Assembly (NCBI GenBank): GCA_021738505.1
Contig: JAIPBW010000024.1
Span: 1-40,722, forward strand
DNA length: 40,722 nt
DNA from: Bacteroidales bacterium
Lineage (GTDB): Bacteria > Bacteroidota > Bacteroidia > Bacteroidales > PWNQ01
Reading direction: 5' to 3'
Notes under the pieces: generated by a model
The model's input: the letters and a program-made list of their open reading frames with translations, nothing else
Told to the model about the DNA's origin: nothing
The model's database searches: none
Shown: positions 15,946 to 40,722 of the stretch, piece by piece
How positions within the stretch are numbered: position 1 is the first letter of the stretch
Layout: each line of letters starts with the position of its first letter
Position numbers and translations under genes: made by a program

Positions 15946-17205
15946 TTAAGCCACCTTGAGTTTAGCAATATTGGTTTTTTCCAATTGCTTATGCACGTAG
16001 TCAATGTCCACGCGTAATTCGCGTTGCTTATCAGATTTTTGAGAAGGCATGTCAAACATGGCATCATTGAGAATGGCTTCTAACATAGAACGCAATCCAC
16101 GAGCTCCCAATCCATATTCTATCGCTTTATCCGCAATAAAATCATAAACTCCTTCTTCAAAAGTAAGTTTAATATTATCCAGTTCAAACAAATAAATAAA
16201 TTGCTTGATGACTGAATTTTTGGGCTCGACCAGAATTTGCTTCAGTGTTTCTTTATCCAATGGGTTCATAAAACTAACCACCGGCAAACGACCGACAATC
16301 TCTGGTATCAGACCGAAACTTTTCAGGTCTTGCGGGGCCACATACTGCAACAGATTTTTTGTATCAATAGCTTCTTTTTGATCTTCCGCTTTAGCAAATC
16401 CAATTACATTGGTGCGCAGGCGGTCAGCAATTTTTCTTTCAATACCGTCGAAAGCGCCACCGGCGATAAACATTATATTTTCGGTATTGACTTTTACCAT
16501 CTTTTGTTCCGGATGTTTTCGTCCACCTTCGGGCGGTACATTCACCGTTGTTCCTTCGAGCAACTTCAGCAGTGCTTGTTGCACGCCTTCTCCGGAAACA
16601 TCACGTGTAATCGATGGATTATCACTTTTACGGGCAATTTTATCGATCTCGTCAATAAAAACAATACCTTTCTCTGCTTTTTCCGGCTCATAATTAGAAG
16701 CTTGCAACAGGCGGGAAAGAATACTTTCCACATCTTCACCCACATATCCGGCTTCGGTAAGAACCGTAGCATCCGCTATACAAAAGGGAACCTCCAACAT
16801 CTTAGCTATAGTGCGCGCCATCAACGTTTTGCCGGTCCCTGTTTCTCCTACAAGAATAATATTGGATTTTTCAATTTCCACATCCGAGTCGGATTCCTTA
16901 TTATTTTTCTTGCTCAGCTCAATAACCCGCTTATAATGGTTATAAACAGCTACGGATAACACACGCTTCGCCTGCTCCTGCCCGATAACATACTGGTCAA
17001 GATATCCTTTGATCTCATGAGGACTTTTGAGCGTTAATGAACCGGTATCATCAACTTTATCACTGCTCACTTCTTCCTGTACAATCTCATATGCCTGGTC
17101 CACGCAATAATCACAAATCTGTCCCTCTATGCCGGAGATCAGCATATTGACATCTTTGCGCTCTCTGCCACAAAATGAACAATGTTCACTATTTTTTTTG
17201 GCCAT
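15946..17205 (-). CDS. clpX: ATP-dependent Clp protease ATP-binding subunit ClpX
   Basis: Zn-binding [15 protein letters not shown]; Walker [29 protein letters not shown]. Confidence 0.97.
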
Positions 17206-17251
17206 AAATTAATTCTGAATATTTCAAGCGGAAGTTTTATGATTCCACTAA

Positions 17252-17950
17252 TTATTTCTCGTCGCTTTTCTTATTACTCCTGTTCAGGACTTCGTCAATC
17301 ATACCATATTCCTTGGCTTCTTCAGCAGTCATCCAGTAATCCCTGTCGGAGTCTTTTTCAATTTTCTCATAAGACTGACCGGAATGCTTGGAGATGATTT
17401 CGTAAAGCTCCCGCTTCATTTTCAAAATCTCCCGGGCTGTAATCTCGATATCTGAAGCTTGTCCCTGTGCGCCGCCCATCGGTTGATGGATCAACACTCT
17501 GGAGTGAGGCAATGCTGTTCTTTTGCCTTCGGTTCCGGAACATGAAATCACAGATCCCATGGAAGCTGCCATGCCTGTGATGATCGTTGCAACGTCCGGA
17601 GCAATATATTGCATAGTATCATAGATACCAAGGCCTGCATAGACAGAGCCCCCCGGAGTATTCAAATAAACCTGAATATCTTTGCTGGAATCCGTAGACT
17701 CCAGGAATAACATCTGAGCCTGAATAATATTAGCTACAGTATCGTCAATAGGTACTCCCAAAAAGATAATGCGGTCCATCATCAAACGGGAAAATACATC
17801 CATCTGGGCTACGTTCATCTGCCGCTCTTCAATAATCGTCGGATTTATATATCCGGAGACAGCTGATGAATATTGATCATAAGCCAGACTGCTAATGCCT
17901 TTATGTTTTACGGCATAATTGCGAAATTCGTTGTTATTGGTATTGCTCAT
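17252..17950 (-). CDS. clpP: ATP-dependent Clp protease proteolytic subunit ClpP
   Basis: YLNTPGGSVYAGLGIYDTMQYI, GMAASMGSVI, ALPHSRVLIHQPMGGAQGQASDIEI. Confidence 0.97.
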   Translation of the reverse strand: MSNTNNNEFRNYAVKHKGISSLAYDQYSSAVSGYINPTIIEERQMNVAQMDVFSRLMMDRIIFLGVPIDDTVANIIQAQMLFLESTDSSKDIQVYLNTPGGSVYAGLGIYDTMQYIAPDVATIITGMAASMGSVISCSGTEGKRTALPHSRVLIHQPMGGAQGQASDIEITAREILKMKRELYEIISKHSGQSYEKIEKDSDRDYWMTAEEAKEYGMIDEVLNRSNKKSDEK

Positions 17951-17952
17951 AA

Positions 17953-19341
17953 TTAATTTTTCTTATTTTTTTCCTGAGCTAATGTAACAAATTCATCGTA
18001 AGAAATGTTCTTTTCGTTTATTGTTACTTTTTCTTTGAACAAGTCTGTAAGTTTCCGCTGATATAACTCGTCATAAATCCGGTTGGTTTGTTCTTTATTT
18101 TGCATGACGGTTTCCACCAGCTGATTCATCTGATCGCTCATTTCGTCAGTATCCGGCATTCCCATTTGCATTGCCAGCAATTCCTTAATGCGGCCTTTGA
18201 CCTCATCTTCTTTCACTTCCAGCTCATGATCGGCAATCAGTTTATTTTGTAGCAATTGCCATTTCATGCCTTCGGCATACTGCTCATAATTTTCTTCAAT
18301 ATCTTTTTCTGAGAGACGTTCATTTTCTTCAAGATTGCGGTTATTTTCTTTTAACCAGCGCTTCATAAAGTCTTCCGGCAATTTGATGTCGGCCATTTCT
18401 TTAATCTTATCCACCACATCATTAAAGAACATTCTTTCGCTTTCGTTCACCATAGAATCCATGGAGTCTTTGCGGATGCGTTCGCGCAGTTCTTCTTCTG
18501 TCTGAATATTGTCGCCCTGATACACTTTGTTAAACAATTCTTCATTCAGTTCGGCAGGCTCAACACGTGTAATACTGGTAATTGTAGCGCGATAATCTGC
18601 TTTGAGTTTTTCCTCATCCTCTTCAGAAACGCCAAGCATCGTTGCCACATCTTTGGCATTTTTGAAAGTCCGCATAGGATTCCAGTCGATAGAGTCTCCA
18701 ACTCTGGAACCTAATACCTTTTTCTTATATGTTTTTAATTCGATTTTATCAACAGCAAAAGGTGCATTATTTTCCACACCTTCCTCTACAACATTTCCTT
18801 CGCCATCCAGTTGCTTGAAATCAGCGTAGACCACATCATTTTCTTCAACAGTCTCCGGATAGGTGCGTTGTCCATAATTTTTGCGAATGTCTTCCAGGTA
18901 GTTATCTACCATTTTATCATCCACATCTATATTGTAATAATCGGCTTCAATGTTTTCGTCCAGAGTAATGTTAATTTCTGGTTGCAGAGCTATATCAAAA
19001 TAAAATTCAAACTCTGTGTCATTCTCTACGTCAAACTTAGCTTGTTTATCTTCGCTAGGCAATGGGTTTCCAAGTGTCTGCAATTTATTTTCCATGATAT
19101 AATTGCTCAGTGCGGAAGACAACATATTATTGACTTCGTCAACAATCACAGCATTACCATACATTTTCTTGATCATTCCCATCGGTACTTTACCCGGGCG
19201 AAAACCAGGCATTTGGGCTTTCTTTTTGTATTCTTTAAGTTTTTTCTCTACCGCTTCCTTGTAATCCTCTTCAGTAATTTCGACTTTAAGAACTGCCGTT
19301 AGTTCGCCGGTATCTTCTTTTGTGATGTTCATATCTCTCAA
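17953..19341 (-). CDS. tig: Trigger factor
   Basis: N-terminal ribosome-binding GFRPGKVPMGMIKKMYG; synteny with clpP-clpX; start possibly at the second Met (19332). Confidence 0.92.
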   Translation of the reverse strand: MRDMNITKEDTGELTAVLKVEITEEDYKEAVEKKLKEYKKKAQMPGFRPGKVPMGMIKKMYGNAVIVDEVNNMLSSALSNYIMENKLQTLGNPLPSEDKQAKFDVENDTEFEFYFDIALQPEINITLDENIEADYYNIDVDDKMVDNYLEDIRKNYGQRTYPETVEENDVVYADFKQLDGEGNVVEEGVENNAPFAVDKIELKTYKKKVLGSRVGDSIDWNPMRTFKNAKDVATMLGVSEEDEEKLKADYRATITSITRVEPAELNEELFNKVYQGDNIQTEEELRERIRKDSMDSMVNESERMFFNDVVDKIKEMADIKLPEDFMKRWLKENNRNLEENERLSEKDIEENYEQYAEGMKWQLLQNKLIADHELEVKEDEVKGRIKELLAMQMGMPDTDEMSDQMNQLVETVMQNKEQTNRIYDELYQRKLTDLFKEKVTINEKNISYDEFVTLAQEKNKKN

Positions 19342-38523: not shown

Positions 38524-38541
38524 TTTTGTTTTAAAACAAAA
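38524..38541. promoter_or_regulatory. Perfect 18-bp palindrome, candidate operator of the downstream XRE-containing operon
   Basis: TTTTGTTTTAAAACAAAA, about 44 nt upstream of the first ATG. Confidence 0.5.
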
Positions 38542-38584
38542 TATGATTAAAAAATGTTAAAAATAAACCTGTAGGTTGATTTTT

Positions 38585-39127
38585 ATGAATATAGTAACTA
38601 TATTTGCAAATAGATTATACGCTATTCAATTTGACAATGAGTCTGAAAATGAACTTGCACGAATAGTAAATATGTGGAAAGATGTAGAATATCTTTTCAA
38701 TTATTTTGATAGCAACAGAGAATATTTTGATAATTCATACTGGAATGGAGTTACTATTGAATATGCAACTGATAAAACCCTTGAACTGCTGGATGATATA
38801 TACGACACACTAATTAAATGTGCAGCAGATAATACAGAATCAACTTTAGATGCTATATTTTACCCACTAAGTGATAATCTAAACAGCGGACAACTAATTT
38901 TAGGAAAAAGCAAATTAAAAAAAGCACAGAACTGGTTAAGATTTTATGCATTAAAAGTAGAACCGAATGTATATGTTATAACCGGAGGTGCAATTAAGTT
39001 AACCCATAAGATGCAGGATCATCCTGATACGACTCAGGAATTAATGAAGTTAAATAAATGCCGTGATTTTCTTATTCAAAATGGAATAATAGACCTGGAT
39101 GGGTTTACTGAAAATAATGAGGATTAA
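38585..39127 (+). CDS. Candidate toxin of a TAC-like operon (RelE/HigB-like C-terminal half suspected)
   Basis: ATG at 38585 preferred over the track's TTG at 38576; C-terminal RFYALKVEPNVYVITGGAIKLTHKMQDHPDTTQELMKLNKCRDFLI resembles RelE/HigB-like beta-sheet/helix pattern; directly precedes an XRE gene. Confidence 0.65.
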   Translation: MNIVTIFANRLYAIQFDNESENELARIVNMWKDVEYLFNYFDSNREYFDNSYWNGVTIEYATDKTLELLDDIYDTLIKCAADNTESTLDAIFYPLSDNLNSGQLILGKSKLKKAQNWLRFYALKVEPNVYVITGGAIKLTHKMQDHPDTTQELMKLNKCRDFLIQNGIIDLDGFTENNED

Positions 39128-39131
39128 AACT

Positions 39132-39602
39132 ATGTCTAAGAAACTTGATAAAATAAATAGTATTGCCCGGAAAAGTGGGAATAGTATTATTGAAGAAGCA
39201 AAAGCTCAAAAACAGAACCGGCAATGGATAAAGAAATCGCGCAAGATTGCCATACACATTCTCAGTGAGATAAAAAGACAAAAGCCGAATAATGGAATGT
39301 CTCAGAAAAAGCTTGCTGAAAAAATGGACGTTAGTCCACAGTACATCAATAAAATAGTTAAAGGAGAAGAAAATCTGACATTGGAAACAATATCCAGAAT
39401 TGAAGAAGTATTGGGGGTTGAATTATTCAATGTTGACCTGCCTCAAAGCAACATGTATGTAGAACCCTATAAATCAGACTATCAGCATATTACTTCTCCC
39501 TCAAAGGTACAAGATGGCGATAGAGCAAATTTTGACAATATTATCGATTTTACATCCTATAACGATTCCGATGATGATAAACCCTCAGGAACCTATGGAT
39601 AA
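39132..39602 (+). CDS. XRE-family HTH protein, candidate antitoxin with C-terminal extension
   Basis: HTH MSQKKLAEKMDVSPQYINKIVKGEENLTLETISRIEEVLGVELF; start 39132 preferred over the track start at 39099; 4 nt after the upstream stop. Confidence 0.85.
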   Translation: MSKKLDKINSIARKSGNSIIEEAKAQKQNRQWIKKSRKIAIHILSEIKRQKPNNGMSQKKLAEKMDVSPQYINKIVKGEENLTLETISRIEEVLGVELFNVDLPQSNMYVEPYKSDYQHITSPSKVQDGDRANFDNIIDFTSYNDSDDDKPSGTYG

Positions 39603-40047
39603 AAAAAAGGATCAACAAATAAATTTCAGGCTTGAACGAGTAACAACTGAGCAATTCTCTATTGACGAGGAGGTCTATGATGAAGCGGGAAGCAAAAGCA
39701 AGATTAACTTAAATGTTCGCTTTAATTATGCTTTAAATTCCGAAAGTAAAATTGTTTCTGTTTTTACCGGTTTCAAATTTGAGATGAACGGCGTTTCATT
39801 TTTGATCATTGAGGCTGGTGGACATTTTTTAATCAAAGAAGAAGACTGGAATGATATGCTTAGCCCTGAAAACAATAAAATAACTTTGCCAAAAGGCTTT
39901 GTGCAGCATATGGCAATGATCACAGTAGGCACAACTCGTGGAATTCTCCATGCAAAAACAGATGGAACAGAATTCAATAGGTTCCTTATCCCAACAATTA
40001 ACCTTACAGAGATCATCAGAAAAGATGTGGTGCTGGAAGTAAATTAA
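39595..40047 (+). CDS. SecB-like protein, candidate chaperone of a TAC system
   Basis: MDKKKDQQINFRLERVTTEQFSI.. / FKFEMNGVSFLIIEAGGHFLI / LPKGFVQHMAMITVGTTRGILHAKTDGTEFNRFLIPTINLTEII resembles SecB layout; ATG at 39595 overlaps the antitoxin stop by 8 nt. Confidence 0.65.
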   Translation: MDKKKDQQINFRLERVTTEQFSIDEEVYDEAGSKSKINLNVRFNYALNSESKIVSVFTGFKFEMNGVSFLIIEAGGHFLIKEEDWNDMLSPENNKITLPKGFVQHMAMITVGTTRGILHAKTDGTEFNRFLIPTINLTEIIRKDVVLEVN

Positions 40048-40662: not shown

Positions 40663-40722
40663 ATGAAAAAAGCAACAAGAAGAAAATTCACACCGGAGTT
40701 TAAGGCAAAAGTAGCCATAGAA
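40663..40722 (+). mobile_element. 5' fragment of an IS3-type transposase OrfA, truncated by window end
   Basis: MKKATRRKFTPEFKAKVAIE is a typical OrfA (HTH) N-terminus; SD aaggag upstream. Confidence 0.85.

Follow-up and report, generated by a model that had tools for sequence, protein, structure and literature searches.

The three genes at positions 38585-40047 of a 40,722-nucleotide stretch of Bacteroidales DNA (hereafter the window) constitute, by their anatomy, a genuine toxin-antitoxin-chaperone (TAC) operon, whose family is new and whose kind is already known. We consider it likely that the operon encodes a translation-blocking toxin (T), its antitoxin (A) and a SecB-like chaperone (C) on which A appears to depend, and that it probably serves in abortive defence against phages. 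In terms of sequences and structural models, the TAC reading is supported by the gene set, the fold of C, the fold and conserved residues of T, the association between antitoxin tail and chaperone, an operator-like site and the restriction-modification (R-M) neighbourhood of the relatives. TACs have been characterised mainly in Proteobacteria and Mycobacterium; the present operon belongs to a branch that is widespread in Bacteroidota, where T has relatives in 28 of the 395 genomes sampled and a broader scan yielded over 500 candidates. Neither the toxin nor the chaperone of this branch matches a family in Pfam or NCBIfam, and its plasmid member bears the annotation 'hypothetical protein'.

All three genes lie on the plus strand. 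The toxin gene (38585-39127, 180 aa) is separated by 4 nt (39128-39131) from the antitoxin gene (39132-39602, 156 aa), which overlaps the chaperone gene (39595-40047, 150 aa) by 8 nt (39595-39602). An earlier note on this DNA had described the same tight packing, and its coordinates hold in the window; the place that it gave for the first protein is also right, while the length of 181 aa includes the stop codon. The same genes, order and packing recur at 43 distinct loci, which excludes a chance set of reading frames. The operon is preceded by the gene of a 1226-aa protein and followed by an IS3-like element; the note had placed the latter about 0.6 kb downstream, and by visual reading of the sequence an IS3-like OrfA indeed starts at 40664 (MKKATRRKFTPEFKAKVAIE). 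No defence or R-M genes adjoining the operon are in view in the window. Pfam matches elsewhere in the window include trigger factor, a Clp protease and an AAA_2 (ClpX-type) ATPase, probably at 15946-19341 on the minus strand, as placed by size and order only. ClpXP degrades the antitoxin of one studied TAC; this cluster, about 19 kb from the operon, is probably ordinary housekeeping.

Relatives of C were present in 51 of the 395 Bacteroidota genomes. In the wider scan, at least 576 T relatives emerged from 84,980 species genomes; only the nearest 80 were kept, so that the sample leans to close relatives. Annotation of the loci by T, A and C profiles yielded 43 distinct T-A-C and 62 T-A loci. 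The three-gene linkage, a check set out for the operon, is thus conserved, and the proposal of a divergent Bacteroidetes TAC branch was judged right. Furthermore, the distances of T, A and C correlate with one another (Mantel r 0.50-0.66). A mainly phage-borne origin was rejected, as T relatives were found on just 4 IMG/VR contigs and one phage record. Single-sequence searches of PDB sequences, Pfam and viral contigs with the window protein P0003 gave nothing, and neither did profile searches of PDB sequences; isolated sub-threshold matches to Pfam RIF2_lid, SMP_2 and Cas9_PI2 were not common to the homologues and were discarded.

The AlphaFold model of T (pLDDT 90.4) comprises a strand pair, a helical stretch (approximately residues 23-100) and a RelE-like core of three strands and a C-terminal helix, which agrees with the RelE/HigB-like C-terminal half previously noticed in the first gene. 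The fold of this gene had been named beforehand as a test, and a toxin-like fold was found: the top six Foldseek matches in the PDB are all chains of S. pneumoniae HigBA (6af3/6af4), with E 0.03-0.15 and a probability of up to 0.94. None of 23 T homologues matched the gp49/HigB family PF05973 of Pfam, and alignment of the T profile with gp49 toxins (hhalign) gave P 0.0024, at a score of 24.8 with one null score near it at 24.0. Residues K110, R119, T133-G134-G135, I137 and K138 are invariant in 45 T sequences. In the profile alignment with gp49, R119 is paired with the arginine of YR and K138 with the first of the lysines in the THGxxKKT motif, and the spacing of 9 residues between K110 and R119 is that of the gp49 pair R55/R64. 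Via the gp49 positions, K110, R119 and K138 would be the counterparts of R68, R77 and K95 in HigB-TAC, all of which are required for toxicity (PMC9098466). The HigBA-like fold, the gp49 profile match and the invariant basic residues thus make T a likely toxin, of a divergent and enlarged gp49/HigB type (RelE/BECR superfamily), with modest support from fold and residues; by analogy it would act as an mRNase. Identity with the ADP-ribosyltransferase of CmdTAC was rejected, because the T model matches HigB and no such transferase, and T matches no PD-T4-9 model. Broken toxin genes, either split or with stops, lie next to seemingly intact antitoxins at three loci (L057, L059 and L137), as expected if the toxin is costly. 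In a Cytophagales MAG (L062:4001-4861) toxin and antitoxin are fused in one 286-aa reading frame.

The second gene had been taken for an XRE helix-turn-helix (HTH) protein, and A indeed carries this domain at residues 53-98 (Pfam HTH_3, E 1.7e-14; HTH models of PADLOC PDC-M64, 5.4e-16). The antitoxin tail, the operator-like dyad and the chaperone-less sister systems described below go beyond the earlier note. The tail of A comprises residues 99-156 (58 aa; 39426-39599, plus strand), and the median number of residues after the HTH is 58 in T-A-C antitoxins versus 6 in T-A antitoxins. We defined an aromatic tail as at least 30 residues with at least three F, W or Y, a criterion chosen after the tails had been inspected, and found one in 40/43 T-A-C versus 3/51 T-A antitoxins (non-redundant loci; Fisher p 2e-19, uncorrected for kinship). 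The exceptions are tails without a chaperone at L103, L113 and L133, and C with a short tail at L056. This association rests in part on related loci. On the toxin tree the T-A-C or T-A label changes 14 times on the best tree and at least 7 times on well-supported branches, and of 7 independent pairs drawn from supported branches, about 5.9 have the aromatic tail on the side with C and 0.3 on the opposite side (median sign-test p 0.03). Tail length alone was not significant in the phylogenetically independent sign test (p 0.125), because the chlorobial T-A antitoxins retain long non-aromatic tails of 35-65 residues without an adjoining C; aromatics make up 2.1% of these tails versus 11.0% of the T-A-C tails. 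Outside Chlorobia, tails of at least 30 aa without C are rare (three loci). The association between tail and chaperone is strong, though the aromatic criterion was not pre-registered. Experiments on other TACs established that the SecB-like chaperone is bound by a C-terminal chaperone-addiction (ChAD) tail, in which W and Y residues are critical, and that this tail makes the antitoxin depend on the chaperone (PMC5105189, PMC6377645). The repeated co-change of tail and chaperone, over at least 7 state changes, is what is expected if the tail of A is a ChAD region, and by analogy this candidate would have the same role. The antitoxin at L008:788-1504 has a tail of 144 residues, far above all others, and belongs to a T-A-C unit followed by a methyltransferase gene resembling type III R-M.

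Sequence models of SecB miss C, and fold comparisons recover it, which places it as a distant SecB member by fold. The cut-off of Pfam SecB (PF02556) was reached by none of 21 C homologues, nor in 16 genomes; some known TAC chaperones likewise stand outside this family (PMC4257090). The AlphaFold model, built with 30 homologues, has a pLDDT of 94.5 and shows four long strands and a long helix. Its best Foldseek matches in the PDB are E. coli SecB (1qyn; E 3e-4, probability 1.00, TM up to 0.60/0.66), Rv1957, the M. tuberculosis TAC chaperone with its bound ChAD peptide (5mtw, probability 1.00), and streptococcal proteins without an assigned function. The SecB-like nature proposed for the third gene is thus borne out by the structure; when the two structures are aligned, C and E. 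coli SecB are approximately 10% identical. A profile of 37 C homologues aligned end to end with 8 SecB proteins over 122 columns (hhalign, P 0.0059), and none of 60 column-shuffled controls did as well. The parallel previously drawn between the C motif FVQHMAMITVGTTRGILHAKTDGTEFNRFLIPTINLTEII and a segment of SecB reappears as the same pairing in this profile-profile alignment. In addition, C matches PADLOC PDLC04763 at 5.6e-10.

Immediately upstream of the operon, an 18-bp operator-like dyad (ATAAACCTGTAGGTTGAT; 38563-38580, plus strand) ends 4 bp before the toxin ATG and represents a candidate antitoxin site. Its consensus AWMAACYTRTARGTTGAT lies next to the toxin start, usually 3-4 bp before it, at 61 of 87 non-redundant loci (allowing up to 3 mismatches) and in 2 of 435 control stretches of equal length taken from these loci. 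It is common to T-A-C and T-A forms across the phylum, including Chlorobia, and the copy in the window is the sole zero-mismatch site of the host genome. The dyad is probably the site at which A binds and regulates its own operon, and this binding would lead to autorepression. The fixed distance to the start codon is unusual for a plain operator; the dyad may overlap the promoter of a leaderless mRNA, or may block translation as well as transcription. The host genome holds a second near-match (contig C69, L196), which was set aside because its surroundings lack toxin-antitoxin genes. The perfect 18-bp palindrome TTTTGTTTTAAAACAAAA (38524-38541) is the only gap-free one with arms of at least 9 in the window and would be a weak candidate for a second regulatory site. 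Compared with shuffled versions of this AT-rich stretch it did not reach significance (p 0.07), and it was rejected as a conserved site, since it was not seen at other loci.

Among the known systems, HigBA1-Rv1957 of M. tuberculosis shares with the window operon the toxin-antitoxin-SecB-like order, a HigB-like toxin, an antitoxin with a C-terminal extension and the SecB fold (5mtw); this order had been likened to that of HigBA-Rv1957-type TACs, and the direct match to 5mtw agrees with the comparison. It differs in that the window toxin, at 180 aa, is enlarged in its helical part and unmatched in Pfam, the window chaperone falls outside Pfam SecB and the sequence of the antitoxin tail is unrelated, although ChADs vary anyway. 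E. coli HigBAC, which senses a lambda tail protein and acts in abortive infection (PMC11980606), likewise combines a HigB-type toxin, a HigA antitoxin and a SecB-like chaperone, but in another host phylum and with a toxin to which that of the window is only distantly related. CmdTAC (PD-T4-9; PMC11618068) is also a three-gene TAC, in which the chaperone is SecB-like and the C-terminal part of the antitoxin is long and unstructured; unlike T, however, CmdT is an mRNA ADP-ribosyltransferase. Solitary E. coli SecB resembles C in fold and in the end-to-end profile alignment, whereas C is bound in an operon to a toxin-antitoxin pair. The architecture is shared with PADLOC PDC-M64, whose models are matched by A and C at 5e-16 and 6e-10, but by T only weakly (7.7e-5 over 49 residues, 112-160). 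A literature search on PDC-M64 found nothing. Distant C genes of Bacteroidota follow other toxins, including HigB_toxin PF09907 (L151, L153) and proteins that strongly match the PDC-M64 toxin models (PDC-M64B), at 2e-75 to 1.5e-22 (L146-L148). PDC-M64 is thus itself TAC-like, and within this group the window system forms a toxin branch of its own. At L145-L153 distant SecB-like genes come after HigB_toxin (PF09907), DUF4268-like and unnamed proteins; judging from these gene orders, the toxins that precede related chaperones have been exchanged.

RNase activity, neutralisation, addiction, repression, the trigger and defence are all inferred, and the mechanism of titration, RNA cleavage and abortive infection is transferred from CmdTAC, MqsRAC and HigBAC, the TACs with reported anti-phage activity. 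We propose that T would block translation, most likely as a ribosome-dependent mRNase of the gp49/HigB kind, and that A would bind and neutralise it while its HTH domain would act on the dyad ahead of the toxin start and so repress the operon. The aromatic tail would bar A from folding or from surviving proteolysis unless held by C. Titration of C, which in studied systems is brought about by a phage capsid or tail protein, would then lead to the loss of A and the release of T, and the cell would halt translation, probably as an abortive anti-phage defence. A link of the window operon to phage defence is plausible by analogy with the neighbours of its relatives and with PDC-M64, which PADLOC lists as an uncharacterised defence candidate. 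Type I or III R-M genes adjoin 10/43 T-A-C and 3/62 T-A loci (many with a flank of 1.5 kb only), type I R-M provides the commonest domains among 125 flanking proteins, and four loci (L011, L053, L078 and L116) are flanked by an HsdS-like gene on one side and an HsdR-like gene on the other.

The same operon might instead work mainly in self-maintenance or stress response, with the R-M genes of its relatives hitch-hiking or being stabilised by it. TACs were first described as stress modules (PMC4257090), the module is accessory (0 of 2 same-genus genomes searched, 14 of 198 genomes of the order), three plasmid records carry T relatives, and the window copy adjoins an IS3-like element and no defence neighbour. 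Nevertheless, the four loci placed between HsdS- and HsdR-like genes and the candidate status in PADLOC favour defence, as does the anti-phage activity reported for three other TACs, and we regard a main role in maintenance or stress as unlikely. It is quite unlikely, in turn, that T is a toxin of the same superfamily directed against a target other than mRNA, for instance a gyrase poison, its enlarged helical part having changed the target. The large helical stretch and the weak sequence similarity to gp49 would fit such a change, and the ParE-type relatives that share this fold include gyrase inhibitors (PMC11980606); yet the basic residues K110, R119 and K138 are invariant, the first two being spaced as in the gp49 toxins, and the nearest fold is that of HigB, whose family consists of ribosome-dependent RNases.

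In Chlorobia, a close homologue of C stands alone, apart from any T, and the T-A antitoxins keep tails with no adjoining C, as would be the case if C were a general SecB-type chaperone that neighbours the toxin-antitoxin pair by chance and the tail had another role. This appears very improbable, given the rarity of long tails without C outside Chlorobia, the low aromatic content of the chlorobial tails and the correlated distances of T, A and C. The solitary C relatives (18 loci) have no adjoining toxin and no Pfam SecB match, and, when the tree is rooted with TAC chaperones that are more distant, they nest within the chaperones of the T-A-C loci; they may represent the general SecB of green sulphur bacteria. 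As a tentative reading, which we hold possible and would not press, one toxin family would have switched chaperone control on or off at least 7 times, with the SecB gene and the addiction tail moving together and the operator unchanged, and the stand-alone SecB-like protein of green sulphur bacteria would descend from, or have given rise to, this toxin-bound chaperone. As near relatives exist with and without the chaperone, nature supplies matched pairs (L011/L053 and L116/L078, each of the four loci lying between R-M genes), a way into how toxin-antitoxin pairs come by, or part with, a chaperone with a possible role in phage sensing. The solitary genes (L009, L012-L015, L017 and L019-L030; genus g60) often lie beside murB-like or nitroreductase-like genes. 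This genus is probably Chlorobium, as Chlorobium ferrooxidans (L106) holds a T-A pair of the same kind as that of L033. A lone SecB-like gene at L150:2992-3474 comes right after an alanine dehydrogenase-like gene, and neither a toxin nor an antitoxin was seen on the same strand.
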